Shown here: positions 4,887-20,905 of the stretch, in pieces
Layout of the letters: each line of letters opens with the position of its first letter
Position numbering within the stretch: position 1 is the stretch's first letter
Assembly: GCF_022669055.1 (NCBI RefSeq)
Contig: NZ_JAJMLW010000003.1
Coordinates: forward strand, 62,001-126,000
DNA from: Adlercreutzia faecimuris
GTDB lineage: Bacteria > Actinomycetota > Coriobacteriia > Coriobacteriales > Eggerthellaceae
Direction of reading: 5' to 3'
Length of the DNA stretch: 64,000 nt
Position numbers and translations under genes: made by a program
Notes under the pieces: generated by a model
What the model was told of the DNA's origin: nothing
The model's input: only the letters and a program-made list of their open reading frames with translations
The model's database searches: none

Positions 4887-5543
4887 ATGGGAAATCGAGC
4901 AGTCATCACCACGCCGGACAAGAACCTGGCGCTCTACCTCCACTGGAACGGCGGCCGCGACTCCGTCGAGCCCCTGCTCAAGTACTGCGAGCTCCAGGGC
5001 TACCGCCCCCCGAGCCAGGACTGCTACGGATGGGCGCGGATGGCCCAGGTGGTCGGGAACTTCTTTGGCGGATCGCTCTCGGTGGGCATAGACAGGTACC
5101 GCAGCCTCGGCGACCAGGGCGACAACGGCGTATACGTCATCGACGGCTGGAAGATAGTCGATCGCTACACGACGGAGTACGACAAGGATTGGAACGCGGT
5201 CGGCCTCAGGCACATCGACCCTTCCGCCGAGCAGAGCGGATACGACTTCGACGAGATGCTGCACGCCTTCGACGAGGCGATGCCCGAGAACCTGAGGCTC
5301 GGTGCCTTCCTAGATGCCGAAGAGGTGCCAGTGTCCGATGTCCGCCTGGGCGACAAGGTTTGGATGAGCGGGTACGAGTCCACCCCCGAGCTCTTCGAGG
5401 TCGTTGGATTCGGCGCCGACGATGCGCCCAGGGGCTTCAAGGGCATCCCCTTCGTCAACCGCTACGATCACGAGGGCGACTACTCCTGGAACGGCAACAA
5501 CTACATCGACGCTGACACCTGCCGCATCGCCCCGCGCGAATAG
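4887..5543 (+). CDS. uncharacterised mobile-element protein
   Basis: 218 residues starting at ATG 4887, chosen because AAGGAGG lies at the right distance (4872-4878); in-frame codons further upstream lack a site. The N-terminus MGNRAVITTPDKNLALYLHW followed by NGGRDSVEPLLKYCELQGYR is a conserved pattern I associate with hypothetical proteins of integrative elements; no named domain is certain. The sequence is acidic and Trp/Tyr-rich, lacks signal peptide or membrane segments, and ends in a beta-rich section (GDYSWNGNNYIDADTCRI). It is followed by two further unknown genes on the same strand (5622, 6170) and probably shares a transcript with them. Function unknown. Confidence 0.75.
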   Translation: MGNRAVITTPDKNLALYLHWNGGRDSVEPLLKYCELQGYRPPSQDCYGWARMAQVVGNFFGGSLSVGIDRYRSLGDQGDNGVYVIDGWKIVDRYTTEYDKDWNAVGLRHIDPSAEQSGYDFDEMLHAFDEAMPENLRLGAFLDAEEVPVSDVRLGDKVWMSGYESTPELFEVVGFGADDAPRGFKGIPFVNRYDHEGDYSWNGNNYIDADTCRIAPRE

Positions 5544-6169: not shown

Positions 6170-6640
6170 ATGGAATGGATCGATATAGAGACCAAGAAGG
6201 ATGTCGATGCTTTGCTGGAGAGGGTAGAGCAGTTCCACGACTGGTACGTCGCTGGCTTCTCCTACGATCCCCTTGCGCGCGCAGAAGGCGGAGACTTGAA
6301 TCTGGGGAGGTTCAAGATCGACGTGGATTCCCTGACTGTGACCTTCAGATGGGACTGCAAGAGCAGAGGTGGAGAATGGCCGGAAGTCCAGCTTGAGTTC
6401 AGCGGTCTGCTCGTCTTCAGATTCGCGAACTTCAAGGATCCGGATCCGATCTGGCACGGGCGTATCGAGGAGACGAATCGGGGATGGGCCTTCTTCGATG
6501 ATGACGGCGTTCCGTTCACGGACGAGGAGCGCGCCCATCCCGAGAGAGTCGATTCCGGGTTCTTGGCCGTATGCGACCAGATAAGGTGGCGGCCTCTCGC
6601 AGTCGTCACCGCCGATGGCCCTGACTGGTGGAACGATTAG
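6170..6640 (+). CDS. uncharacterised acidic protein
   Basis: 156 residues from ATG 6170 (MEWIDIETKKDVDALLERV). That start is preferred over an ATG at 6158 because GGAG lies 6 bases upstream. The start MxWIDIETKxDVDxLL resembles small hypothetical proteins of bacterial elements; the middle is beta-rich (FKIDVDSLTVTFRWDCKSRG) and the end Trp-rich (WRPLAVV...DWW). No signal, membrane segment or active-site motif. Its stop overlaps the ribosome site of the serpin fusion gene at 6651, so the two are very likely translated from one message. Function unknown. Confidence 0.7.
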   Translation: MEWIDIETKKDVDALLERVEQFHDWYVAGFSYDPLARAEGGDLNLGRFKIDVDSLTVTFRWDCKSRGGEWPEVQLEFSGLLVFRFANFKDPDPIWHGRIEETNRGWAFFDDDGVPFTDEERAHPERVDSGFLAVCDQIRWRPLAVVTADGPDWWND

Positions 6641-6650
6641 GAGGATAGTC

Positions 6651-8609
6651 ATGCATAACGCCGAAGTCGAAAGGAACGAAAGCAGCGGCGGCCTGAACAG
6701 GCTCGCCGGGAGACTCTTCAAAACGATTGCAGACATACCCGGCAACGCGGTCGTTTCGCCTTCCTGCCTCTTCCAAACGTTGTCGCTGGCCGCAGCGGTC
6801 ACTGACGGAGACACGCGGGCGCAGATCGTCGATGCCCTCGGCGGCGAGGATCCGATGCGATCCGAGCTCTCCTCCGTTTCAGAAATCGGGGAGCCGGAGT
6901 ACGGGTGCAAGAACTTCCATTACTCGACCGGGGCATCGATATGGCTGGACGAGAGCCTTGAAGCCAACGACCCGGGGTTGGCGGAAAAGGGATTTCCCAT
7001 CGCATGTGACGTCGAGCGCGTCGCGATGGACAGCGAGGACGCCAAGACCCGAATGAGCGAATGGCTCTCCGGCTGCACGGGCGGGCTTTACTCCGAGGCT
7101 CCCGACATGAGCCCGGATACGCTCGCTGCCCTCATGGGGGCGATGCACCTGAGGGATTCTTGGAGCGACGGGTTCGAAGAAGACACGCCACGTATGTTCC
7201 AACCGGATTTTGGGGATGCCGTGATGGCAGACTTCATGCTGGGATGGGACAACTACGACGTCCTCGACTCCGAGGGGGCGGTCACTTTATCGAAGGATCT
7301 TACATCGGGTTGCAGAATGTACATGACGCTGCCACCGACGGGCTGCTCCCTGAGAGACTACGTTGCGAGCGGATCCGCCTGGAGGAACATCTCCTCGAAT
7401 ATCGCCGGAAAGAGCACCGAGCCCTATCGTGAGTGCAAGCTGTACCTGCCCCGCTTCGAGCTGACATCCAACGGCGTGAACCTCAAGCGTTTTCTCATGG
7501 AGGCAGGCGTGACCCGTCTGTTCGAGCCCGGGGCCGACTTCAGCCCCATCAGCCCCGACGACCTCATGGTCGATGACGTCATCCAGAACACCATGCTAAA
7601 GATCGACGAGGAGGGGCTGGAGGGCGCGTCGTACGTAATCATGTGCGTGTGCGCCGGGGCGCTTCCCGAGGATGCGCCCGAGCCTCGCGAGATCGTCCTC
7701 GACAGGCCCTTCGCCGTAGCGGTCACCTCTCCCGACGGACTCCCGCTCTTCGTGGGCACCGTCGAGCTGCCGAGCGCGGAGCACCGTCCATCCAAGAGCC
7801 TGAAGGGCGTCGTCTACGGGGCCGCCATCGGCGACGCGCTCGGGGTTCCCTACGAGTTCATGGCGCGCGGCACCTTCGAGTGCGACGGCATGGTCGGCGG
7901 AGGGGCGCACGGGATGCCCGCCGGAACGTTCTCGGACGACACGTCGCTTCTGCTCGCCACCTGCGACAGCATCAGGGAGCGCGGCGGCATCGACGTCGAG
8001 GACATGCGGGAGCGCTTCCGGGCGTGGCTCTACGAGGGCGCGTACACAACCGACGGCCGCGCCTTCGACGTGGGGAACGCCACCGCCACGGCGCTTCGGC
8101 AGGGCTTCGGCTGCGACGGCGAGAGGTCGAACGGCAACGGGTCGCTCATGCGCATCGCGCCTCTGGCCCTCACGGACGCCACCGACGACGAGATACGGGC
8201 GGTCTCATCCATTACGCACGCCCACCCCGTGTCCATGGAGGCATGCGTCTTCTTCGTGCACGTCCTGAGGGATCTTCTTGAGGACGAATGGATTGAGGAG
8301 GCGATCGAGAAGAATATCCCCAGCGACGGGCGCTTCTCGTTCCTTAAGGGCATACAGGGCGCGTCTCGCGACGACATCCGGTCGACCGGCTATGTCCTAG
8401 ACACTTTGGGTGCGGCGCTCTGGTGCGCCTGCAATACCGACAGCTATGGGGAATGCGTTCTGGAAGCAGTGAACCTCGGGGACGACTCGGACACCACCGC
8501 CTGCGTCGCCGGAGCCCTTGCGGGGGCGATGTACGGCCTCGATAGCATTCCCTCGGAGTGGATAGAGCAGCTTCGCGGCAAAGAGGTCATCGATGGCTGC
8601 CTGTTCTAG
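6651..8609 (+). CDS. serpin fused to ADP-ribosylglycohydrolase
   Basis: 652 residues with two clear domains in one frame. Residues about 15-378 are a serpin: AVVSPSCLFQTLSLAAAV and TRAQIVDALG match the helix-B region, LSGCTGGL and LYLPRFELTSNGVNLKRFL the central region, and VDDVIQNTMLKIDEEG, EGASYVIM and LDRPFAVAV with LFVGTVELP the hinge, reactive loop and C-terminal signature. Residues about 382-652 are an ADP-ribosylglycohydrolase: GAAIGDALG, the metal motif SDDT (about 428), NGNGSLMRIAPL and GDDSDTTACVAGALAGA are the family's metal- and ribose-binding motifs. No signal peptide, so it should act in the cytoplasm. The hinge has P15 Gly but bulky P9-P8, so inhibition is plausible, not certain. 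Ribosome site AGGAGGA overlaps the preceding stop. An inhibitor plus an ADP-ribose remover in one protein is unusual. Confidence 0.88.
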   Translation: MHNAEVERNESSGGLNRLAGRLFKTIADIPGNAVVSPSCLFQTLSLAAAVTDGDTRAQIVDALGGEDPMRSELSSVSEIGEPEYGCKNFHYSTGASIWLDESLEANDPGLAEKGFPIACDVERVAMDSEDAKTRMSEWLSGCTGGLYSEAPDMSPDTLAALMGAMHLRDSWSDGFEEDTPRMFQPDFGDAVMADFMLGWDNYDVLDSEGAVTLSKDLTSGCRMYMTLPPTGCSLRDYVASGSAWRNISSNIAGKSTEPYRECKLYLPRFELTSNGVNLKRFLMEAGVTRLFEPGADFSPISPDDLMVDDVIQNTMLKIDEEGLEGASYVIMCVCAGALPEDAPEPREIVLDRPFAVAVTSPDGLPLFVGTVELPSAEHRPSKSLKGVVYGAAIGDALGVPYEFMARGTFECDGMVGGGAHGMPAGTFSDDTSLLLATCDSIRERGGIDVEDMRERFRAWLYEGAYTTDGRAFDVGNATATALRQGFGCDGERSNGNGSLMRIAPLALTDATDDEIRAVSSITHAHPVSMEACVFFVHVLRDLLEDEWIEEAIEKNIPSDGRFSFLKGIQGASRDDIRSTGYVLDTLGAALWCACNTDSYGECVLEAVNLGDDSDTTACVAGALAGAMYGLDSIPSEWIEQLRGKEVIDGCLF

Positions 8610-8637
8610 TTTTCGAGAAGTGTCGCCTGCTCAGAGC

Positions 8638-8660
8638 CGCTGTGACAATTTGTCGCAGTG
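8638..8660. promoter_or_regulatory. dyad operator, copy 3
   Basis: CGCTGTGACAATTTGTCGCAGTG, sharing the core TGTGACAATTTGTC with the sites at 2783 and 4548. It ends 18 bases before the ATG of the small membrane protein at 8679, overlapping the space where its promoter or leader would be. Confidence 0.45.
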
Positions 8661-8678
8661 ATGCAGGGAGGTCATTTT

Positions 8679-8858
8679 ATGGGTTGGATAATAGCGATAC
8701 TTGTCATCGGTCTGGCGATAGCCGGATTGGTTGGAGAGACCGTCCTCCACCCGCTACTCTATGGCCTGTTCATCGCCTCGATACTGATTGTTCCTCTATG
8801 GCTCGGGTCTTCGATCGTCAACGGCATCATAGATGCGATCTTCGGAAAGAGGCGATAG
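8679..8858 (+). CDS. small membrane protein, two hydrophobic helices
   Basis: 59 residues from ATG 8679 with ribosome site GGGAGG at 8666-8671. The sequence is almost all membrane: MGWIIAILVIGLAIAGLVGE, a Pro-containing turn, then LLYGLFIASILIVPLWLGS, and a short basic tail ending FGKRR. Predicted as an inner-membrane hairpin with both ends in the cytoplasm. No family was recognised. Its operator-like dyad is shared with two other gaps of the element, which suggests common control with the polymerase operon. Could be a small toxin, a regulator of a larger membrane protein, or a phage/element factor; none can be chosen from sequence. Confidence 0.65.
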   Translation: MGWIIAILVIGLAIAGLVGETVLHPLLYGLFIASILIVPLWLGSSIVNGIIDAIFGKRR

Positions 8859-8937
8859 GCCATAGGGTGTGCAAAAGTGGCTCTCCGTGCCTGCCGTTAT
8901 AATTACATGTGAAGGAACCATAAACGAGGGAAACAGC

Positions 8938-9327
8938 TTGGCCGACATCAGATGCAGGAGATTCTCGGACATTCTCAGAACCAAAGAGGATCACTACCCA
9001 TATTCAGACAGGTACATAAGCGAGGTTCACGACTCGTCCACCAAGACGGGAAGGACCGAGCGCGAGCACATGGTCGAATGGTTCCGTGCGAACGAGACCA
9101 AGGGAGGCGGCTCGTACAGCAGGCAGACTCCGAACTCCAGCGCGAGACGATGCTACAACAGCCTGATGAACGCTGCCTCGCTCCTCTGGATCGCCGAGGC
9201 TGTCGGTATAGACGAGCTTACCGTGAAGATTGCATATGAGGCTGCTGTTGGTGCCGGAGATTATCGCCGAGCATGCGGGGCGATTCGAAAGATCATCACC
9301 TGGGACATGGTCTACGCCTGCGTATAG
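8938..9327 (+). CDS. uncharacterised helical protein with TTG start
   Basis: 129 residues if started at TTG 8938, where GAGGG lies 7 bases upstream and a TATAAT (8898-8903) is suitably placed for the transcript. An in-frame ATG at 8869 would start before that -10 box and has no ribosome site. The protein is basic at its N-terminus (LADIRCRRFSDILRTKEDHY), polar in the middle, and helical in the C-terminal half (NSLMNAASLLWIAEAVG, KIAYEAAVGAGDYRRACGAI). It resembles small element proteins of unknown function. No membrane segment. It is followed by its own downstream promoter for the DUF3800 gene, so the two are probably separate units. Confidence 0.65.
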   Translation: MADIRCRRFSDILRTKEDHYPYSDRYISEVHDSSTKTGRTEREHMVEWFRANETKGGGSYSRQTPNSSARRCYNSLMNAASLLWIAEAVGIDELTVKIAYEAAVGAGDYRRACGAIRKIITWDMVYACV

Positions 9328-9367
9328 CCACGAGAGGTCGCGATTTCGTGTAGGGCGGAATTGCCTG

Positions 9368-9396
9368 TTGTCGCAGGAGCTCGCAGGCCTTATAAT
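9368..9396 (+). promoter_or_regulatory. sigma-70-type promoter for the DUF3800 gene
   Basis: TTGTCG (9368-9373) and TATAAT (9391-9396) are separated by 17 bases, matching the housekeeping promoter pattern. The start point would be near 9403, giving a leader of about 80 bases before the TTG start at 9482. Confidence 0.6.
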
Positions 9397-9438
9397 GTTC
9401 AGCAACGGACTGGTCGAATAGATCTTGGTCCACCCTGC

Positions 9439-9457
9439 GGCGGGGATATTCCCCGCC
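9439..9457 (+). promoter_or_regulatory. hairpin in the DUF3800 leader
   Basis: Perfect stem GGCGGGG / CCCCGCC with the 5-base loop ATATT, lying between the promoter at 9368 and the ribosome site at 9470. It is followed by ATTTCTATATC rather than a T-run, so it may be a weak terminator, an mRNA stabiliser, or an operator. Confidence 0.45.
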
Positions 9458-9481
9458 ATTTCTATATCTAGGAGCAATACC

Positions 9482-10162
9482 TTGTCTGACCTTGGGATAT
9501 TCATCGACGAATCTGGAGACGTGGGGTCGAACTCCGAGTTCTATCTGATCACGATGATACTCCATGACCAAGCATCGAGCATCGAACAGCAGGAACAAAA
9601 GCTTTGCTACGAGCTCGATCTTCTGGATGCGCATCCTGAAGAAGCAGTCCACTCCGGTCCCATAGTCCGCAAAGAGGACGAATGGAAGGACATCGACCTC
9701 GAAAAGCGCCGCAAGGTCTTCTTCAAGATGTTCTCGTTCGTGAGGCTCTGCCCTATCAGCTACAAGACGTTTTCTGTCAGGAAGAGGGAATGCGCCGATC
9801 GGTTCGCGCTGAGGGGGCGGCTCGCAAACGAGCTGGGCTCTTTCCTGAGGGACAACCTCGCTTTCTTCCAGGGCTTCGAGTCGGTCATCGTGTACTACGA
9901 CAACGGGCAGGCGCTCGTCACGGACCTCATCAACACCGTGCTTTGCGCCTATCTGACGAATGTGGATGTCCGCAAGATAGCTCCCTACGAATACAGGCTT
10001 AGCCAGGCGGCGGACATGGTCTGCACGCTGGAGCTCATGCGGGAGAAATCTGAAAATGGCGCGGGCATGAGCAAGTCCGAGCTCATCTTCTTCGAGAGCA
10101 GGCGAAGGCTCAGCAAAGTGTTCCTGAAGACGCTGAAGGGACTGGAGTTTCCCAAGAGCTAG
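9482..10162 (+). CDS. DUF3800 domain protein
   Basis: 226 residues from TTG 9482, where AGGAGC lies 6 bases upstream. The N-terminus LGIFIDESGDVGS is the DUF3800 signature (two acidic residues of an RNase-H-like fold), IVYYDNGQ supplies the middle strand, and RLSQAADMVCTLELM matches the C-terminal conserved helix. DUF3800 proteins are predicted metal-dependent nucleases and are frequent in prophages and integrative elements; no substrate is established. The protein is cytoplasmic, with a Lys/Arg-rich stretch after residue 60 (VRKEDEWKDIDLEKRRKVF). It has its own promoter and leader hairpin. Confidence 0.82.
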   Translation: MSDLGIFIDESGDVGSNSEFYLITMILHDQASSIEQQEQKLCYELDLLDAHPEEAVHSGPIVRKEDEWKDIDLEKRRKVFFKMFSFVRLCPISYKTFSVRKRECADRFALRGRLANELGSFLRDNLAFFQGFESVIVYYDNGQALVTDLINTVLCAYLTNVDVRKIAPYEYRLSQAADMVCTLELMREKSENGAGMSKSELIFFESRRRLSKVFLKTLKGLEFPKS

Positions 10163-10258
10163 CTCACCGGGTGAACCGAGCCCCTCGTGACATTACCGCC
10201 GCAGCTCCACCCGGAGCGCGCGTCTTCGCAAACGAGTGCTTGAGATAGGAGAATTACC

Positions 10259-10474
10259 ATGGAGTCACCCAGGGTCCTGCCAGAAGCGGGCGACAGGGTT
10301 CGATTCGAATTCGACGGAAACCTCGTCTCCGGCACCGTATTCGTCGTCGATCCTAGGGGCGGCGGCGTTTGTTTCGGTATTTGCCCCAGCTGCGATGTGA
10401 GAGCCGATGACGGCACGCTTCACAAGCATGTCCCCATCAACGAGGTCGTGCCTTTATCGGTTGAGCAGAGGTAA
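10259..10474 (+). CDS. small beta-rich protein with Cys pair
   Basis: 71 residues from ATG 10259, ribosome site AGGAGAA about 6 bases upstream. Reads as a small beta-barrel (DRVRFEFDGNLVSGTVFVVD) followed by Gly-rich turn and CFGICPSCDVRADDG, in which Cys residues could form a metal or disulphide site. No named domain. It is the last recognisable gene of the element before the AT-rich end region. Confidence 0.65.
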   Translation: MESPRVLPEAGDRVRFEFDGNLVSGTVFVVDPRGGGVCFGICPSCDVRADDGTLHKHVPINEVVPLSVEQR

Positions 10475-11281
10475 GTTGGCGGGCCCCTTCTTCGCCGCAT
10501 GCTGGATCTGGGCGGCAAATGGGCGGTCGATGCATGCTGCCAAGCGGTTTGGGGCGATTTTGCTCTGCGAACCGGCTCATAAAGACCCTGTACTCACTTG
10601 GAACTCACTTTGTACTCAGCGTTTCACGTTCTGCCTGTTCAGGCCTTTACACCCCTATGCTGAATTTATTCCTGAGTTATTCCTGGTAATAAATTTGCGG
10701 AGTAAACGATCGGGATCTCGGCATTTTTGTACTCAGCATTTTCGAAATAGGAGAAAACACCTGTTCACAGGTGCTTTATTGTAACGCCGTATTTATTCCC
10801 TTTCCGAGGTGTGTAAAACGGGGATTTAAGGTGAGTACAAAACGATACTGTTGATTTGCTTAACTAGGTGGACGTCATGATACAGGTTGGACGATATAAC
10901 ATGATTTGATACGTATTGTACGCCTGACGGCAAAAACTACAATCGAGTGGGAATAACGTGCTGGGGTAATCCGGTATACGCCTAAAGTCGTTTATAGCCA
11001 TCTACCTGCGGATATTGGCAATCGCTCCATAGCCCCGCAGGTAGATTTTGCGTAATCGTCCTCCGAAAGTCCTCCGCTCCAGCCGAAAAATAGCAAAGAC
11101 CTTTTCTGCTTTCCTGAAAAGAAACTAAACCGCATTTCCCCAGTTCGGGGCTATTTCTTCATGTCATGTCGGAGAAATCCGATAGATCTCTTCATTGTTC
11201 CGAATCCCCATAGACTTCCTTACAAGGAAACGCACCGAAGGCGTTTCCCGCCCGTAGGTTCGCTATTGAAAGGAAAGAACA
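10475..11281. other. gene-free AT-rich end region of the mobile element
   Basis: About 800 bases without a supportable gene and clearly lower in GC than both sides. It holds three copies of TTTGTACTCA (10609-10624 and 10726-10742 in direct orientation, both continuing GCRTTT, and an inverted one at 10831-10843), a hairpin CACCTG/CAGGTG at 10758-10773 flanked by A and T runs (a bidirectional terminator), and a 12-bp perfect inverted repeat ATCTACCTGCGG/CCGCAGGTAGAT at 11000-11011 and 11035-11046 followed by TTTT. The repeated motifs suit integrase arm sites near an attachment site, an inference. Confidence 0.45.
11000..11046 (+). terminator. large hairpin followed by TTTT
   Basis: Perfect 12-bp arms (ATCTACCTGCGG / CCGCAGGTAGAT) around a 23-base loop, then TTTTG. 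It may be a terminator on the plus strand or part of a structured RNA; no gene ends close upstream, so its target is unclear. Confidence 0.4.
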
Positions 11282-11383
11282 ATGTTTATCGCAGAACTTA
11301 CCAAGCCGCTCGGCACCCTCGTTTTCGGCATGGCGCAGCCGCGCAATGACTACGAGACGAAGCAACAGAAGATGACACAATGA
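11282..11383 (+). pseudogene. 33-codon remnant of an element gene
   Basis: ATG 11282 follows a fair ribosome site (AAAGGAAAG) and opens MFIAELTKPLGTLVFGMAQP plus 13 more residues, ending in TGA at 11381. The opening reads like the N-terminus of a longer folded protein (beta strand, PLGTLVFGMA) cut short, and AT-rich sequence of the reverse-transcriptase module follows at once. I therefore read it as the 5' piece of a plasmid- or ICE-type gene truncated by the insertion at about 11380. It could instead be a genuine small protein. Confidence 0.35.
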
Positions 11384-11434
11384 TTAATAATTTATCCTGC
11401 TTTCGCTCAGCCACTTTCGGAGGCAGGGGGCCGC

Positions 11435-11480
11435 GGTCGCTTCCAGGTGCTCTGGGGTGCTTCGCATCTACCGAGCGACC
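11435..11480 (+). ncRNA. candidate structured RNA upstream of the reverse transcriptase
   Basis: A 46-base GC-rich stretch folds by eye into a three-way junction: outer stem GGTCGCT (11435-11441) with AGCGACC (11474-11480), inner hairpin CCAG-GTGCT-CTGG (11443-11455), and inner hairpin GGTGC-TTC-GCATC (11456-11468, with one G-U pair). It lies about 60 bases before the reverse transcriptase start, where several DRT systems keep an associated non-coding RNA. A weak -10 TATGAT lies just after it. The fold is seen; the RNA's existence and role are inference. Confidence 0.35.
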
Positions 11481-11540
11481 CTATGATACGATGACAAATA
11501 CTCGAAGCGTATTCATGAATGTTTCTTTGGAGTGTGTATT

Positions 11541-13244
11541 GTGTTTAGAACGATAGTACGAGAGGTGCCGCAAGATTATCTGTTGACTCCTTTTCCTAGA
11601 AATTACTGTGATTTTATGGATGAAATCTCTAGTGATGATCTTTATACGGGACTTCTTGGGTACGGTTTGTTCGCCGATAAACTGCCGCCGATGTTTACTA
11701 GTAAATCCTTCGCGGCGGACTGCGTTAATAGTAAAGAGTGCAGAGTTGGTCACGAGAAGAGCGATTGGGTTGTTTTTTCTTACATTAGAAATATCGGAAC
11801 AAAACGCGTTTTTGGCATCCCGTCTCCCTTTGCTTATGAGAGTCTAGTGCGTCATTTGGTCGAACACTGGAAAGAAATCAAAGAAATCTTTCGTAACAAC
11901 ACACAAGGCCATCCCTATCGAATTAGCCGCATTCACATTCGAAAGCGCAAAGACTCGGACTCGCTTTTTAGTATGAATTATCGTTGTTGGCAAATTGAAG
12001 AAAACCCGTTGCCTGCCTTGTTGATAGGAAATCGGATGGCCGTCGATTGTGATATATCGAGGTGCTTCCCCAGTATTTATACGCATGCTCTAGATTGGGC
12101 TATTTTAGGAAAGGAAAAGGCAAAGAGAAATACGAATGGTACAGAGTGTAGATGGTCGCATGAGCTAGACCAGCGCACGATGAACACAACAAATGGCGAG
12201 ACTCATGGTTTGCTCATTGGCCCTCATACCTCAAATCTTCTTGCCGAATTAATCTTAACGCGTATTGACGCAGCATTATTCGAAAAGGGATATCGATTTT
12301 TGCGACATATCGACGACTATCGCTGTTACGTAGACAGTAAGGAGCGAGCGAGGTCGTTCATCCTGGATCTTGAGACTGAGCTCGATCTGTATGGGCTCTC
12401 CGTAAATCAGAAAAAAACGAGGGTTTGGGATCAGCCGAGTGCTTCTCTCGATGATTGGGTGAGAATACTGAAAAATGCTTTTCCGCACAAACCCCTCCTT
12501 GATAAGGGTGATGTGGAGAGGTTTCTAGACACCGCCATAGTGGCTGCAAAAGAGTCTGGAAGTGGGTCTGCGCTGGCTTATGCTTTTGGGATGCTATCAA
12601 AAAGTCGCATGAACCACTGGGCCCGAAAATACTACGGCGATATTGCCCTCCACCTCGCTTACACTCAGCCGTATCTCCTCCCTTTCGTTGAAGAGCGAGT
12701 TATCATGGCGGCAAAGATACCAAGCAAACGCATTGAAATTTTTTCGAATTTACTGCTAGATAAGTCCATTGAGGAGAGGGATTACCTTTCGGCATCTTAT
12801 GCAATCTATTATGCAATGCGATATGGTTTTGCGCTTGCTCTTTTGGAGAGTGCGGAGGCGGCCTCTGTTTTAGAGGAGACACGAGATTGCGTTCTGTGTA
12901 CCTGTGCGTTGGTGTATTCAAGAAGACGGCAGAACAAAGCTTTGCGCAACAAGCTTATTAGCTATGCAAAGGAATTGGCGAAAACCGAAGGAGACTTTCA
13001 GCGCAATTGGTTGTTTGTTTATGAGGCGTTGCCGATCGATCAGATACCCAAAGAGTATCTGTCTGGCGCGTGGCGCGCAATCAAACGCAAGGGGATCAGC
13101 TTTATCGACACGATTCGTATTGAAGAGCCGCCGAGAAATAACGAGTCGATAGAAGATGTCATTGATGCTTTGGCGGAGCAGTTGTCCGACGACGGTGAGG
13201 TGGGAGCTGATAGAGCAAGCGACCGAAGCACTAACGAGCTGTGA
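11541..13244 (+). CDS. defence-type reverse transcriptase (DRT/UG group)
   Basis: 567 residues from GTG 11541, chosen because GGAG lies 8 bases upstream (11529-11532); a GTG at 11532 overlaps that site. RT motifs are present in order: VDCDISRCFPSIYTHALDW (motif A, about 168-186), GLLIGPHTSNLLAELIL (motif B, about 223-239), RFLRHIDDYRCY (motif C, the catalytic Asp pair, about 252-263) and LSVNQKKT (motif D). The N-terminus has YGLFADKLPPMFTS, a pattern of the unknown-group RTs. After residue 330 comes an alpha-helical repeat-like region of about 230 residues. There is no maturase, HNH, retron msr/msd or integrase part. GC is far below the neighbours, showing transfer. Such RTs give phage resistance, often by abortive response. 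The exact DRT class cannot be named from sight. Confidence 0.85.
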   Translation: MFRTIVREVPQDYLLTPFPRNYCDFMDEISSDDLYTGLLGYGLFADKLPPMFTSKSFAADCVNSKECRVGHEKSDWVVFSYIRNIGTKRVFGIPSPFAYESLVRHLVEHWKEIKEIFRNNTQGHPYRISRIHIRKRKDSDSLFSMNYRCWQIEENPLPALLIGNRMAVDCDISRCFPSIYTHALDWAILGKEKAKRNTNGTECRWSHELDQRTMNTTNGETHGLLIGPHTSNLLAELILTRIDAALFEKGYRFLRHIDDYRCYVDSKERARSFILDLETELDLYGLSVNQKKTRVWDQPSASLDDWVRILKNAFPHKPLLDKGDVERFLDTAIVAAKESGSGSALAYAFGMLSKSRMNHWARKYYGDIALHLAYTQPYLLPFVEERVIMAAKIPSKRIEIFSNLLLDKSIEERDYLSASYAIYYAMRYGFALALLESAEAASVLEETRDCVLCTCALVYSRRRQNKALRNKLISYAKELAKTEGDFQRNWLFVYEALPIDQIPKEYLSGAWRAIKRKGISFIDTIRIEEPPRNNESIEDVIDALAEQLSDDGEVGADRASDRSTNEL

Positions 13245-13312
13245 GAGCTCGCTTAGGAATTGTAGAAATTGTCGTAAGAGCGCAGGTGCAGCGAGGCTTC
13301 CTTTGATTGAGG

Positions 13313-13657
13313 GATTCCCTACCCCCACGTCTGGTCGCTTGTGCGCTTGTACCTTGAGTAGGGGAAGTCCTCGAACCTCAGATCGGCCGCCCTGCCGGCC
13401 ATGTCGGCTCGGATGGCGCGGCCGATGGCCTCGCCGAGGGCCACGGGGACGGCGTTGCCGATCTGGCGGTAGGCGTCCATGACGTCGCCGCAGATGCGCC
13501 AGTCGTCGGGGAAGCCCTGGACGCGCCGGTACTCCTCGACGGCCGGCGGGCGGTCCTCCGTGGGATGGCACAGGTCGGTCGCGGGCATGGTCGGCGACGT
13601 GACGAGCATGGGGCACGGCCGGTCGAAGCCGATGCGCCGGTAGAAGCCTGTCTTGCC
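13313..13657 (-). pseudogene. 3' fragment of the C5 methyltransferase gene (copy A)
   Basis: These 345 bases align without gaps to 16211-16555 with about 17 mismatches counted by eye, most of them in the part encoding the last 40 residues. They encode the last roughly 113 residues of the methyltransferase (from the FDRPCPTLVTSPTMP region through IGNAVPVALGEAIGRAI to the stop) but have no start or catalytic Cys. The reading frame is still open. The fragment sits directly after the reverse transcriptase gene and ends abruptly in AAGAAATG at 13658. Together with the full gene it bounds a 2.5-kb block with the GIY-YIG gene and CRISPR array 1. Confidence 0.85.
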
Positions 13658-13823
13658 AAGAAATGAAACGGTCTTAAAGCGCGCGTTGCCGAGAGGCGTG
13701 AGCGCTAGCTTTGATTGCCACGAATGATGTTGCGGAGCATAATAAAAAAAGATTCCTCGCTAGGGCTCTTTGCGAGGGGTGAGTTGCGTTCGGAAAACGC
13801 CAGATGACAAAAAGAGGACGGCT

Positions 13824-15527
13824 TTGATCGAGATAACCACAGAGGTGCGGGCTGAGGAGCCGGCGGGCGCGTCGTTCATTGTCGATCGGTGCCCCTTCCG
13901 CTATGGCGAGCAGATCAACCTTGAGGTTCTCGATCTCGAGGAAGACAAGGTTCTCAACTGGCCCATGGTGTACATCCTGGCCAACGAGGATTCCGCCTAT
14001 GTGGGACAGACCACCAGCGTGGCTACCAGAATGACCCAGCACGGGGCAAGCGTTGAGAAACGCGACTTCACGATGGCGAACATCATCTTCAACGAGGAGT
14101 TCAACTCCTCGGTCGTCACGGATTACGAGCATCGCCTCATCGGGCTCATGCATGCCGATGGGCGCTATCAGCTCACCAACAAGAACGACGGGATGACCGA
14201 TACGAACTACTTTTCCAAGGAGCAGTACTCGGCCATGTTCGAGAGCCTTTGGGATGAGCTGAGAAGCCTCGAGCTCGTCGACCACACCATTGACGAGATA
14301 GAAGAGTCAGAGGTGTTCAAGTACTCGCCCTACAAGGGGCTGACGGTTGACCAGAGGGTCGCGCTCGATAAGATTCTGGCGGTTATAGGCAGAGGCATCG
14401 GGGATGCTGCGCCCCTGGTGGTTGAGGGCGTCCCGGGTACGGGGAAGACCATCCTGGCCATCTACCTGCTCAAGACGCTTCGGGATGATCCCCGGTTCGC
14501 CGGCATGAACATTAGGATACTGGAGCCGGTCACCTCTCTGCGCGAGACGCTCCGCAAGGCGCTTGCCGGCGTACGCGGCCTGAGCCCGGCGGACATCATC
14601 GGCCCGGCTGACTTGGTGAAGCCGGAGTTCGGCTATCGGGCGAACGGGGAGCGCGGCTTCGACATCCTGCTTGTCGACGAGGCGCACAAGCTCAAGCGCC
14701 GCGTGAACCTGGGCTCCCAATACCGGCACTTCGACAAGGTGAACGAGAAACTCGGCCTTCCCAAGGGCGCCAGCCAGATGCAGTGGGTGCTGGAGCAGGC
14801 GAGGTTCCCGATCTTCTTCTATGACCCGCGCCAGTTCGTCGGGCCCTCCTGCGTTACGAGGGAGGATGTGGAAAGTGCCCTCGGCGAGGCCGTCGGCAAT
14901 CCCATCAGGCTGGAGACGCAGATGCGGGTGAGGGGTGGCGACGATTACCTTGACTATGTCTTCGGGATCCTCAATGGGGGAGACCCTCTTCCTCGGCCGT
15001 TTGAGGGGTATGAATTCGTGCTGCACGAGGACTTTCGGGATTTCGTCGAGTCCTTTGAACGCACGTACGCTGCCCATGACCTGAGTCGCATGATCGCGGG
15101 GTATGCGTGGCCCTGGCTGACCAAGCCGAAGAAGGGGTCGAGGGTTTCGGCGGCGCCTTTCGACATCGAGATAGAGGGAGTCGGCCTTCGCTGGAACTGC
15201 ACTTCCGAGAACTGGGTCGGGAAGGGGGCGGATAATCCGGCGATCGCCCATGAGGTGGGCTGCATCCACTCCATCCAGGGGTATGACCTGAGCTATGCGT
15301 ATGTGATCATCGGCGACGACCTTGTTCTGGATGAGGAGTCGGGTCGTCTGCGGGCGAACAGGGCCGGCTACTACGACCGCAATGGCTATGCAACGGCTAC
15401 CGATGAGGAGCTCACGCGCTTCATCAAGAACATCTACTACGTGCTGATGACCCGTGGGGTTATGGGGACGCATGTCTACGTCGCGAATCCGGTGCTGCGG
15501 GGGTATTTGCGAAGGTTCTTTGCCTGA
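13824..15527 (+). CDS. GIY-YIG nuclease fused to DUF2075 (Schlafen-3-like) helicase
   Basis: 567 residues from TTG 13824, with GAGG at a proper distance; an earlier in-frame codon at 13770 lacks a site. The N-terminal domain has the GIY-YIG pattern VYIL...YVGQTTSVATRMTQH (about 49-73). Then comes a P-loop helicase of the DUF2075 type: Walker A GVPGTGKT (about 202-209), DEAH box LLVDEAHKL (about 282-290), the late motif IHSIQGYDLSYAYVIIGDDL, and YYVLMTRGVMGTHVY near the C-terminus. A structure-specific cut plus NTP-driven translocation on DNA or RNA is expected. The same pairing is seen in defence islands, and here it lies between a reverse transcriptase and a CRISPR array. Anti-phage action is inference from family and place. 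A hairpin CCTCGC/GCGAGG lies just upstream at 13754-13777. Confidence 0.85.
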   Translation: MIEITTEVRAEEPAGASFIVDRCPFRYGEQINLEVLDLEEDKVLNWPMVYILANEDSAYVGQTTSVATRMTQHGASVEKRDFTMANIIFNEEFNSSVVTDYEHRLIGLMHADGRYQLTNKNDGMTDTNYFSKEQYSAMFESLWDELRSLELVDHTIDEIEESEVFKYSPYKGLTVDQRVALDKILAVIGRGIGDAAPLVVEGVPGTGKTILAIYLLKTLRDDPRFAGMNIRILEPVTSLRETLRKALAGVRGLSPADIIGPADLVKPEFGYRANGERGFDILLVDEAHKLKRRVNLGSQYRHFDKVNEKLGLPKGASQMQWVLEQARFPIFFYDPRQFVGPSCVTREDVESALGEAVGNPIRLETQMRVRGGDDYLDYVFGILNGGDPLPRPFEGYEFVLHEDFRDFVESFERTYAAHDLSRMIAGYAWPWLTKPKKGSRVSAAPFDIEIEGVGLRWNCTSENWVGKGADNPAIAHEVGCIHSIQGYDLSYAYVIIGDDLVLDEESGRLRANRAGYYDRNGYATATDEELTRFIKNIYYVLMTRGVMGTHVYVANPVLRGYLRRFFA

Positions 15528-15714
15528 GTGCTGGTGGGTGGGCTTTTCGCGTGGATTGCGCGTTGGTGCGAGTTGGGGGCAAGCATGGATCCGCGGGGAG
15601 GTTCGCACTGTGATCGCGCCGCTTTTTCTGCGCCTTGGGGCGTCTGGCGCGATGCTTGGGTGATTTAGCGTCATGCGATGGTATGCTTGGAGGAGGAAAT
15701 CGCAAGATATTGCG

Positions 15715-16206
15715 GTCGCTGCCCCTCGCGGGGCGGCGTGGGTTGAAACCGTGTAGCTAAGCATCGAGCACCGCCTTGGCGATGTCGCTGCCCCTCGCGG
15801 GGCGGCGTGGGTTGAAACTTCTATGAGGAAGGCGAAGGTGCATGGCCCAGCATTGTCGCTGCCCCTCGCGGGGCGGCGTGGGTTGAAACTGGGCGATATC
15901 GCCATCATGGCCGATGAATGGCCGTCGCTGCCCCTCGCGGGGCGGCGTGGGTTGAAACCGGACTTCCTCTTGGAGGACGATCCCGAGTGCTTGTCGCTGC
16001 CCCTCGCGGGGCGGCGTGGGTTGAAACAACTCCAACCACCGTCACGCCGAAGTAGTACGTGTCGCTGCCCCTCGCGGGACAGCGTGGGTTGAAACAACGG
16101 CCCCTCCGTCATCGGCATCGGCGAGGCTGGGTCGCTGTCCCTCACGGGGCAACGTGGGCTGAAACTTGAGCAGCAGGTTCACCCCCGGCTCAAGGCTGGT
16201 CGCTGC
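15715..16206 (+). CRISPR. CRISPR array 1, 35-bp repeats
   Basis: Seven 35-bp repeats at 15715, 15784, 15855, 15924, 15993, 16061 and 16131, separated by spacers of 33-36 bases. The repeat begins GTCGCTGCCCCTCGCGGGGC and ends GTGGGTTGAAAC, the I-C-like form with an internal palindrome. The first five are identical; the sixth has 2 and the seventh about 5 changes, and an eighth is cut after GTCGCTGC at 16199 where the methyltransferase gene begins. Decay toward the right puts the leader on the left (15528-15714, empty of genes), ending ATATTGCG directly before repeat 1. Transcription should run left to right. No cas gene is found in the window. Confidence 0.96.
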
Positions 16207-16216
16207 GGCGGATTCC

Positions 16217-17614
16217 CTACCCCCACGTCTGATCGCTCGTGCGCTTGTACCTTGAGTAGGGGAATCCCTCGAACCGGGGATCGGCCACCCTACCAGCCAT
16301 GTCGGCGCGGATGGCGCGTCCGATGGCCTCGCCGAGGGCAACGGGGACGGCGTTGCCGATCTGGCGGTAGGCGTCCATGACGTCGCCGCAGATGCGCCAG
16401 TCGTCGGGGAAGCCCTGGACGCGCCGGTACTCCTCGACGGCCAGCGGGCGGTCCTCCGTGGGATGGCACAGGTCGGTCGCGGGCATGGTCGGCGACGTGA
16501 CGAGCGTGGGGCACGGCCGGTCGAAGCTGATGCGCCGGTAGAAGCCGGTCTTGCCGCCGGAGAGCGCGTAGGCCTTGCCCATCGCCTCGCGCTGCATGTC
16601 GTCGGGCAGGTTCTTCCAGTACTCGCCTCCCTTGAGCATACGGAAGTAACGCAGGCGCTTCTCGGGGAAGTCGGTGTGGCGCAGGGTGGCGGGGTCGAGG
16701 CCCTCGACGGCCTCGCGGAAGGTGCGCCACGGCGGCAGGCCGCACTCGCCGGCCGGGGCGTGGGTGGGCTCGAGGTAGGGCACGCGCCCGCCGCCGCGCT
16801 TCGCGATGAGCACGACGCGCTCGCGGATCTGCGGGGCGCCGAAGTTGGCGGCGTTGTAGAGGTTGAAGCTGGCCTCGTAGCCGGCTTCCTCCAGGTGGCG
16901 CAGGATGAGGCGGAAGGCGCCGCCGCGCTGGGGCTGGCCGCCCTCTACCAGGGGAAACGGCGTCGAGAGCAGGCCGCGCACGTTCTCGATGACGAGGTAG
17001 GCCGGCTGGATGTCGGCGGCGAGGGCCAGGTACTTGAGGAAGACGTTGCCGCGCTCGTCGTCGAAGGCGCGCTGGGCGCCGGCGGTGCTGAACGCCTGGC
17101 ACGGCGGGCCGCCGAACATGACGTCGACGGTGCCGGGCTCAAGGCCGGCCATCTCCAGCACCTGGGCGGCGTCGTAGCGGTTGATGTCGCCGATGAGGGC
17201 GGCGTCGGGGCGCATGGCCTGGATGGTCATGCGGCACTTGCGGTCGTTCTCGCAGTAGAGTGCCGGGTAGATGCCGGCGCGCTCCATCCCCAGGTCAAGC
17301 CCGAGGGCGCCCGAGAAGAAGCTGAGCGCGTTGATGGCGGGGGAGCCGCCGGCGGGCGTCGGGATGCCGACGCCTGCGCGGCGCGGATGGTCGGGTGGCT
17401 CGGGCACGAGGTTGTTCTCGACCAGGTAGTCGTCCAGCTTGCCGGCGAAGATGACCCAGCGGCTGCCCACCTTCTCGGCCGGCAGCTGGCCGGTGCGAAT
17501 GAGGCGAGAGACGGTCTGCTTGGTGACGCCGAGGATGCGCGCGGCATCGTCGGCGGAGAGGAGGTCGTCGCGGGTCTCAGCGGTATTGGCGGCGGGGATG
17601 TTCGGCTGCTGCAT
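16217..17614 (-). CDS. DNA (cytosine-5) methyltransferase with N-terminal HTH domain
   Basis: 465 residues. Residues about 17-66 are an excisionase-type HTH (LLSADDAARILGVTKQTVSR, IRTGQLPAEKVGSRW). The rest is a C5 methyltransferase: motif I FFSGALGLDLGMERAG, motif IV GGPPCQAFS with the catalytic Cys, motif VI ENVRGLL, motif VIII QIRERVVLIAK and motif X GNAVPVALGEAIG, with a target-recognition region between VIII and X. It protects host DNA from the endonuclease at 18126-18926. The HTH fusion suggests the enzyme also represses or balances its own operon, as N-terminal HTH domains do in some type II methyltransferases. Its 3' end abuts CRISPR array 1 and is duplicated at 13313-13657. Recognition sequence cannot be read off. 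Confidence 0.93.
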   Translation of the reverse strand: MQQPNIPAANTAETRDDLLSADDAARILGVTKQTVSRLIRTGQLPAEKVGSRWVIFAGKLDDYLVENNLVPEPPDHPRRAGVGIPTPAGGSPAINALSFFSGALGLDLGMERAGIYPALYCENDRKCRMTIQAMRPDAALIGDINRYDAAQVLEMAGLEPGTVDVMFGGPPCQAFSTAGAQRAFDDERGNVFLKYLALAADIQPAYLVIENVRGLLSTPFPLVEGGQPQRGGAFRLILRHLEEAGYEASFNLYNAANFGAPQIRERVVLIAKRGGGRVPYLEPTHAPAGECGLPPWRTFREAVEGLDPATLRHTDFPEKRLRYFRMLKGGEYWKNLPDDMQREAMGKAYALSGGKTGFYRRISFDRPCPTLVTSPTMPATDLCHPTEDRPLAVEEYRRVQGFPDDWRICGDVMDAYRQIGNAVPVALGEAIGRAIRADMAGRVADPRFEGFPYSRYKRTSDQTWG

Positions 17615-18125: not shown

Positions 18126-18926
18126 ATGGCGAGCGGGTTCGAGGATCGGTTGGACGCGGCTGTTGCGGAGGAGTCCATCCAGCGGCAGCGGGACGTGGCT
18201 TACGAGCTGCTGGGAGAGTTCGCGCAGAAGCGGATCGCCTGGTACGGCGACGCGTCCAAGGTCAACCTGCGCAAGCTGCTGGCCAAGGACGTGATCATGT
18301 TCGCGGCGCGCGGCGTGGCGTCGGCCGACGAGTTCGTAGCCGAGGCGTTCCGCGCCTGCGAGAGCTCGAGCGAGGAGACGGTCATCGGCAACACATGGCA
18401 GGCGGTCATCGCAGCCATATCGTCGGACACGCTGGACACGGGCGACATGATGACCGTGCGCGACGGCGCGCTGTGGGTGTGCGAGCTGAAGTCGCAGGCC
18501 AACACGGTGAACTCGTCGTCGTTTCCGCAGGAGCTGCGCGAGCTGAAGGACAAGTGCGCGGCGCAGGAGCGCTTCCGTCGGGCGAGCGGCCAGCCGGTGC
18601 GCCCCGCCTTCTGCGTGCTGCGCAACCCCCGGCCCGTCGACGAGGTGCGCGTCTACCGCGCCGACCCGCGCGACCTGCCGAACCGCGACATCGACGGCTT
18701 CGAGTACCGCTACCTGGCCGGTGACGCGTTCTGGCTGTGGCTCACCGGGTTCGACTCGGTGGAGGGGCTCGTCGCGGACGTCGACCTCATCGCCAACGAG
18801 GGCGTCGTCGAGGCGCGGGCGGCCTGCCTCGCGCGCCTGCGCGCGGAGATGCGAGAGGCTTTGGCCGCCCGCGGCCTGGGCGAGACGATGAACGACGTGC
18901 TCAAGCTGAAGAAGCTGCTGGGCTGA
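18126..18926 (+). CDS. type II restriction endonuclease, PmeII-like family
   Basis: 266 residues from ATG 18126. Family landmarks are SSSEETVIGNTWQAVI in the N-terminal third, the catalytic strand GALWVCELKSQANTVNSSSF (the E-x-K of a PD-(D/E)xK site followed by the Asn-Ser-Ser motif), and DAFWLWLTG near the C-terminus, in the spacing known for PmeII-type enzymes. It cuts unmethylated DNA at the site protected by the divergent methyltransferase at 16217-17614. Both genes have high-GC host-like codon use. A decayed CRISPR array begins 13 bases after its stop. Specificity cannot be told from sequence. Confidence 0.83.
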   Translation: MASGFEDRLDAAVAEESIQRQRDVAYELLGEFAQKRIAWYGDASKVNLRKLLAKDVIMFAARGVASADEFVAEAFRACESSSEETVIGNTWQAVIAAISSDTLDTGDMMTVRDGALWVCELKSQANTVNSSSFPQELRELKDKCAAQERFRRASGQPVRPAFCVLRNPRPVDEVRVYRADPRDLPNRDIDGFEYRYLAGDAFWLWLTGFDSVEGLVADVDLIANEGVVEARAACLARLRAEMREALAARGLGETMNDVLKLKKLLG

Positions 18927-18938
18927 GGTTGTGTGGGG

Positions 18939-19108
18939 CGCTAGGCGCGCATGGGCGGTGTGGATTGAAACGCGTCCCAGCAGGCGTGGCGGGCGTTCCC
19001 AGGCGCAGGTCGCCGCTCGCAAGGGTGGTGTGGATTGAAGCAGGTGCGTGTCTGAGTCAGGCGCGAAGCGTATGGACGGCGCTGCTCATGAGGGCGGGGC
19101 GGATGAAG
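18939..19108 (+). CRISPR. decayed CRISPR array (relic of the array 2 type)
   Basis: Two diverged 33-bp repeats (18939-18971 and 19009-19041) and a third, very degenerate one (about 19077-19108), all ending in forms of GTGTGGATTGAAAC. The spacer after the second (starting AGGTGCGTGTCTGAG) is an altered copy of the last spacer of array 2 (AGGTGTGTGGCTGGG). It is therefore the old trailer end of an array related to array 2, left behind after duplication. It has no leader and no perfect repeat, so it is probably inactive. Confidence 0.75.
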
Positions 19109-19896: not shown

Positions 19897-20533
19897 GTCA
19901 CCGCTCGCAAGAGCGGTGCGGATTGAAACTGGACGGGACTTTGGGACGGCGTCATGGCGGTCGTCACCGCTCGCAAGAGCGGTGCGGATTGAAACTGGTC
20001 GCATAACGCGGTTGACAATCTTGCTTCTAGTCGCCGCTCGCAAGAGCGGTGTGGATTGAAACTCAATCTCAGCTCGTAAAGACCGGCAGGTTCTTCGTCA
20101 CCGCTCGCAAGAGCGGTGTGGATTGAAACGCTGTAGCTACTTTAGCAAAAACATGGAAAATGTGTCACCGCTCGCAAGAGCGGTGTGGATTGGAACTTCG
20201 CGGGCGTCTCCGGCATGAGCAGCAGGGACGTCACCGCTCGCAAGAGCGGCGTGGATTGAAACGAGCTCGTGGACGGTGAGATGGTGCCCCGCTCCTGTCG
20301 TCGCTCGCAAGAGCGGCGTGGATTGAAACAGCTTGGCGGTGATGGTGGCATACTGGATGGACGTCGTCGCTCGCAAGAGCGGCGTGGATTGAAATGGCGA
20401 CTTCGGCCAGATACTCAACTCCAGCGTTGATGTCGTCGCTCGCAAGAGCGGTGTGGATTGAAACAGGTGTGTGGCTGGGTCGGGCGCGAAGCGTATGGGC
20501 GGCGCTGCTTGTGAGGGTGGGGCGGATTGAAGC
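19897..20533 (+). CRISPR. CRISPR array 2, 33-bp repeats
   Basis: Nine 33-bp repeats at 19897, 19963, 20030, 20097, 20164, 20230, 20297, 20363 and 20432, with spacers of 33-36 bases, and a degenerate tenth at 20501-20533. The repeat begins GTCACCGCTCGCAAGAGCGG and ends TGTGGATTGAAAC, again I-C-like. Small variants occur (GTCACC, GTCGCC, GTCGTC; GGTG or GGCG; TGGAAC at repeat 5; GAAAT at repeat 8), with GTCGTC forms gathered on the right. The leader is on the left and ends ATATTGCG as for array 1. Repeat length and sequence differ from array 1. No cas genes are present. Confidence 0.96.
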
Positions 20534-20905
20534 TAGTCCGTTGGGCTGCGGGTTGGCTCTGTGGGCGTCGGCGGAGTGGGGCGCCGTCTCGTAGAGGATG
20601 CTCTCGGCGGGACGATGGGGGGGGTGTTGGGCGCTGTCCTCGGTAGGTTCGCTGGACAAAAATCGGCGATATCGCGGAACTTGTGCGCGAATCTGTTAGT
20701 TCGTTCCCGCCCCTTTGGCGCGTTTCCCCTGGTCATGGCGTTGTGGGCAAAAACTCTGCTCGCTTTTTTCCTCCTAGGGACGGTGATATTTCGCTTTTTT
20801 GTCCATCCAGATGCGAGATCGCGGGTTTTTGTCCATCTGAGGGGGGTGTGGGTTAGCTGGAGGGGAGTCTAAGGACAACAGGCTACGTCCCCGTTGCCCC
20901 GTCCC
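20432..20905 (+). repeat. CRISPR-trailer direct repeat, copy 2
   Basis: The array-2 end and downstream flank that also appear at 19009-19480. It begins with the last good repeat and the shared spacer, passes the degenerate repeat, and runs through GATATTTCGCTTTTTTGTCC (20785-20804) to about GGACAACAGGC. The imperfect inverted ends GGACAAAAATCGGCGATATC (20654-20673) and 20785-20804 again bound about 150 bases. Confidence 0.75.

Follow-up and report, generated by a model that had tools for sequence, protein, structure and literature searches.

A probable DRT4 (UG15) reverse transcriptase of Adlercreutzia faecimuris from a subclade below the NCBI naming cut-off

The reverse transcriptase gene and its surroundings

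The stretch of Adlercreutzia faecimuris DNA analyzed here comprises 64,000 nucleotides of contig NZ_JAJMLW010000003.1 and is called the window. It harbors an intact reverse transcriptase (RT) gene, which lies with all of its features on the forward strand. The frame is open from GTG 11532 to 13244, which would yield 570 amino acids, and it is likewise open from GTG 11541 (11541–13244, 567 amino acids). The latter is the likelier start, since a GGAG, on sequence inspection the probable ribosome binding site (11529–11532), is found 8 nt upstream; this is also the start given in a preliminary description of the locus. Residue numbers of the RT protein are counted from GTG 11532.

The four RT motifs reported in that description, including the HIDDY of motif C, are indeed intact. 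Motif A, VDCDISRCF (residues 171–179; 12042–12068), contains the catalytic D174 and is followed by motif B, ETHGLLIGPHTSNLLAE (residues 223–239; 12198–12248), motif C, RHIDDY (residues 258–263; 12303–12320), with the catalytic D261 and D262, and the motif D region, GLSVNQKKTRV (residues 288–298; 12393–12425). The RT part is followed by a predicted helical solenoid, which in the structural model extends from about residue 308 to 531 (12453–13121), corresponds to the alpha-Rep/HEAT-like domain found in class 1 UG/Abi RTs, and agrees with the helical C-terminal region of about 230 residues noted before. The protein ends with a tail (residues 531–570; 13122–13241), whose last residues are TNEL. 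This tail, with TNEL or TNEV at its end, is common to the three Eggerthellaceae proteins and absent from the relatives L023 and L046.

Downstream of the RT gene, a GIY-YIG/Schlafen-type helicase (13770–15527), a C5 methyltransferase on the reverse strand (16217–17614), an EcoO109I-like endonuclease (18126–18926) and CRISPR repeats of two related types (15709–16167, 18939–19047 and 19897–20539) are present. The nuclease-helicase, the restriction system and the CRISPR arrays described earlier are therefore all found in its vicinity, and the reading of the locus as a low-GC reverse transcriptase in a defense island has held, as a UG/Abi-type defense RT lies among defense genes. An active CRISPR system is unsupported, because the arrays are present without a Cas1 or Cas7 gene anywhere in the genome assembly (97.8% complete).

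Two further observations concern the same region. A 346-bp direct repeat with 329 identical positions (13312–13657 and 16210–16555) corresponds to the 3′-terminal part of the C5-methyltransferase gene. Its copies enclose a segment with the helicase gene and the first CRISPR array, an arrangement that looks as though recombination at the 3′ end of the methyltransferase gene had introduced this segment. Furthermore, the open reading frame at 6615–8609 encodes a serpin domain (residues 28–384) fused to an ADP-ribosylglycohydrolase domain (residues 398–648), which looks unusual.

Assignment to the DRT4 family

The Drt4 profiles of PADLOC match nearly the whole RT protein with 552.8 and 489.9 bits, and the next class, Drt6, follows with 269.6 bits, which is a gap of 283 bits. 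The Drt4 label of PADLOC is mixed, as PDLC02177 and PDLC02179 carry it and their best-scoring proteins fall into the DRT6 clade of the tree described below. For this reason the models PDLC03752, PDLC02178 and PDLC02180 were relied on together with the tree. A phmmer comparison of the RT protein with the UG15 chains of the PDB gave an E-value of 1e-45.

In a maximum-likelihood tree of 33 RTs, with UG14, UG30 and UG31 compared by profile only, the RT protein is placed within the DRT4 clade (support 100/99) together with L025, a protein whose match to the UG15/DRT4 chain of the PDB covers all 540 residues. It lies outside the DRT6 clade (100/99), which forms a separate supported group, as do AbiP2 and Drt3b. 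A position among retrons or group II intron maturases, which the preliminary description had named as an outcome speaking against a defense RT, was not obtained. AbiK groups with the long branch of the group II intron RT; this placement is unsure and is likely an artefact without effect on the DRT4 clade.

The structure was predicted with AlphaFold2 on an 18-sequence alignment, without three rows from plasmid records, and the model (pLDDT 84.2, pTM 0.85) displays an RT domain followed by helices. Its best matches in the PDB are the DRT4 structures 9vdo and 9vdv (Z 33.9, 467–468 residues aligned, rmsd 2.5–2.6), followed by DRT6 (9wy8, Z 32.2) and UG15 (9l9s, Z 31.2), and at a lower level by AbiK (Z 25.2), Abi-P2 (Z 22.0) and group II intron RTs (about 14). 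The predicted fold fixes the class 1 architecture, an RT domain plus an alpha-Rep helical domain. It distinguishes DRT4 from DRT6 weakly (33.9 versus 32.2), and here the sequence evidence decides. A comparison of the C-terminal region with known DRT classes had been proposed, and the model including its helical domain fits best to DRT4 (9vdo, 468 residues).

Since profiles, tree and fold agree, the RT protein is assigned to DRT4/UG15, and it is almost certainly a member of this family. The preliminary description had regarded the class as not assignable, a view that has to be given up; of the two options it left, a known DRT class or a new one, the former stands as DRT4/UG15 and the latter falls. 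The gene is of a known class, and it belongs to a DRT4 subclade that remains unnamed under the Drt4 cut-off of NCBI.

Two subclades and the naming cut-off

The DRT4 clade of the tree is divided into two subclades. Subclade A (100/99) contains the structurally solved protein. Subclade B (100/98) comprises the window RT protein, the protein of Adlercreutzia muris (L002) as well as L004, L022 and L023, and the subclade-B model of PADLOC, which is PDLC02178 and not PDLC02180, is likewise the best-scoring one for a protein from the same order (L046). The RT protein is 26–28% identical to the DRT4 structural reference, whose activity was studied, and the identity amounts to 31.7% in the RT part and 20.6% in the helical domain. 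A search for a solved structure of subclade B gave none.

The NCBIfam equivalog for Drt4, NF041749, uses a cut-off of 450 bits, which is a naming threshold and not a biological feature. With 351 bits the RT protein stays under it, and the same is seen for all tested members of subclade B (343–360 bits), whereas subclade A reaches 480–686 bits and DRT6 proteins 240–281 bits. The cut-off therefore separates the two DRT4 subclades, and members of subclade B would not receive the Drt4 name; in view of the agreement between tree and PADLOC, we read it as having been set on one subclade. Subclade B is a less-studied DRT4 branch that standard annotation leaves unnamed.

This raises the question whether the PDLC02178 subclade is functionally distinct, sharing the fold but differing in its DNA product, its priming residue or the phage trigger. 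Such a divergence would fit to the deep branching between it and the solved subclade (100/98), to the helical domain being less conserved than the RT part, to a different loop at residues 125–147 and to the TNEL/V tail kept in Eggerthellaceae, and among class 1 relatives different products are known, random DNA for DRT4 and alternating poly(dC-dA) for DRT3b. However, all catalytic residues as well as the DRT4-invariant tyrosines are kept, and we consider a distinct function unlikely. If it were true, it would have been hidden, since the cut-off of NCBI leaves this subclade without a name.

Base composition and spread

The GC content of the RT gene is 45.9% compared to a window mean of 66.7% (sd 6.8), and only 6 out of 623 windows of the same length are as low, which bears out the earlier remark that the base composition is far from that of the neighbors. 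A low GC content (47.8%) is likewise seen in about 730 bp upstream of the gene. The relatives of the gene are intact and show a similarly low GC content (43.6–47.8%), which fits with horizontal spread.

The gene is rare. It is carried by 3 of 138 Eggerthellaceae genomes, where it adjoins differing defense genes, and the subclade-B model matches 5 of 396 genomes of the class, one of these matches being a fragment. A search of genome contigs returned one relative, the one in A. muris (L002). Phage and plasmid collections contained matches to the RT core; the one DRT4 of nearly full length was located on a Pseudoalteromonas replicon, and the viral contigs searched contained no close relatives of the Eggerthellaceae form. 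One viral contig (L022, 4001–5581) carries a subclade-B DRT4 whose frame ends at 4945 while the similarity continues to 5581, possibly a broken copy.

The neighbors change among the relatives. In L053, from the same order, the DRT4 gene (8578–10131) overlaps the end of hsdR (8578 versus 8594) within a type I restriction-modification operon; in L052 a C5 methyltransferase and a DUF262-type protein are near the RT gene, and in L002 a DUF3427 helicase. An obligate partner gene was rejected, as the neighbors differ in every relative. This argues for a self-contained gene travelling among defense islands.

A gene acquired in this way might also be silent or no longer functional in its host. The low GC content, the sporadic distribution and the flanks, consisting of a duplicated methyltransferase fragment and CRISPR arrays without Cas1 or Cas7, would be in line with this. 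Against it stand the intact frame and catalytic residues, the good ribosome binding site, and relatives which are equally low in GC and likewise intact; such silence or loss of function therefore appears rather improbable.

Invariant tyrosines and the distinction from DRT6

Five tyrosines (102, 150, 183, 263 and 497) are invariant in nine DRT4 proteins. Here, Y183 and Y497 are also present in DRT6, and Y263 is part of motif C. Tyr150 (codon 11979–11981, forward strand), which corresponds to Y125 in the solved DRT4, is a tyrosine in none of ten DRT6 proteins, and it sits in a low-confidence loop of the model (residues 125–159) before motif A. The C-termini differ as well, since a tyrosine is found within the last 12 residues in 9 of 10 DRT6 proteins versus one of nine DRT4 proteins; the window RT protein has none there.

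These residues also bear on the possibility that the protein belongs to DRT6 or to a different class 1 UG/Abi group (UG30, UG14, AbiK or AbiP2). The overall fold is the same, and the Z-score of DRT6 is near that of DRT4. Nevertheless, the 283-bit profile gap favors Drt4, DRT6 forms its own clade, and Tyr150 is common to DRT4 only, with UG30, UG14 and UG31 being compared by profile only. Membership in one of these other classes is thus very improbable.

Because all DRT4 proteins compared carry Y150 and no DRT6 protein does, this residue is a candidate for DNA priming. On this sequence pattern it is our best guess, at somewhat less than even odds. The comparison suggests that the priming site may be Y150 in DRT4 and the C-terminus in DRT6. 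C-terminal tyrosine priming as in DRT3b was rejected for the window protein, as the tail has no tyrosine and in 8 of 9 DRT4 proteins the last 12 residues are free of tyrosine. If priming from Y125 is already contained in the primary DRT4 paper, the Y150 proposal becomes a consistency check and not a prediction.

RNA elements and the intron or retron origin

Within positions 8600–14000, Rfam detected no intron or retron RNA, and the flanks of three relatives, outside the coding ends, align no better than unrelated DNA. A conserved RNA beside the RT gene is therefore considered unlikely; Rfam gave only a DUF3800-XI RNA 2 kb upstream. This RNA (RF02975, 49.9 bits; 9406–9454) lies at the start of a DUF3800 gene (9425–10162), and since it overlies the gene start, the true start of that gene is probably downstream of 9425.

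The earlier statement that intron and retron parts are missing is confirmed by these data together with the family models. A group II intron maturase or retron RT remnant can be dismissed for practical purposes, since the RVT_1 domain and the weak matches to the group II maturase model (48 bits versus a cut-off of 300) and the retron RT model (17 bits versus 235, one retron RT family matched) are opposed by scores far under the cut-offs, a helical domain of the class 1 type, the lack of such RNAs in Rfam and the refutation by tree and profiles.

Proposed mechanism and comparison with known systems

We conclude that the RT gene most likely constitutes on its own an antiphage system of the DRT4 type (UG15, class 1 UG/Abi) and belongs to a subclade separate from the solved one, with a probability of roughly 0.85. 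Due to the homology with published DRT4, AbiK and DRT3b, a mechanism can be transferred to it, and by this analogy untemplated, protein-primed synthesis coupled to abortive defense is probable.

According to reviews, the product of DRT4 is random DNA (PMC13213688), and a further review-level source describes its mechanism (PMC13314766). DRT4 is a hexamer in published work, like AbiK (PMC13213688, PMC13314766, PMC9508834). AbiK hexamers prime on Y44 and Abi-P2 primes on Y61 (PMC9508834), while DRT3b primes on the C-terminal Y666 and produces alternating poly(dC-dA) (PMC13174585). By analogy, the RT protein would assemble into an oligomer, use one of its tyrosines as the starting point for DNA synthesis and, without a template, extend single-stranded DNA whose sequence is not programmed. 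On infection, a phage DNA-binding protein, which is ORF55 in the published case, would protect this DNA, so that it accumulates, and growth of the cell would halt before phage release, i.e., abortive infection.

Among the known systems, DRT4/UG15 (9vdo, 9vdv, 9l9s and the 21ou series) resembles the window protein in whole-length homology, clade and the RT plus helical fold, in the presence of all DRT4-invariant tyrosines and catalytic aspartates, and in apparently being a single gene among defense genes, with no RNA gene detected. The differences are the identity of 26–28%, the separate subclade, the score below the Drt4 cut-off of NCBI, extra residues at about 125–147, and a 40-residue TNEL tail which replaces that of the reference. 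DRT6 (9wy8) shares fold and class, but it belongs to another clade, has a profile score 283 bits lower, lacks an equivalent of Tyr150 and mostly has a tyrosine in the last 12 residues, which is missing here. AbiK and Abi-P2 (7r06, 7r07 and 7r08) likewise combine an RT domain with a helical solenoid and represent the template-independent, protein-primed class; in contrast, they are 16–18% identical, form separate clades, and their priming residues Y44 and Y61 lie in a different fingers loop. DRT3b is a class 1 RT with homology across the RT core, but it works with DRT3a and an RNA, and its priming Y666 is absent in the window protein.

Conclusions

With this assignment a candidate for a new RT class is removed, and the RT gene gains a name as well as a testable mechanism. 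A whole DRT4 subclade was found below the naming cut-off of NCBI, although the wider use of this is small. Finally, the comparison of DRT4 with DRT6 points to one residue, Y150, or Y125 in the solved enzyme, at which DNA synthesis in this family may be primed.
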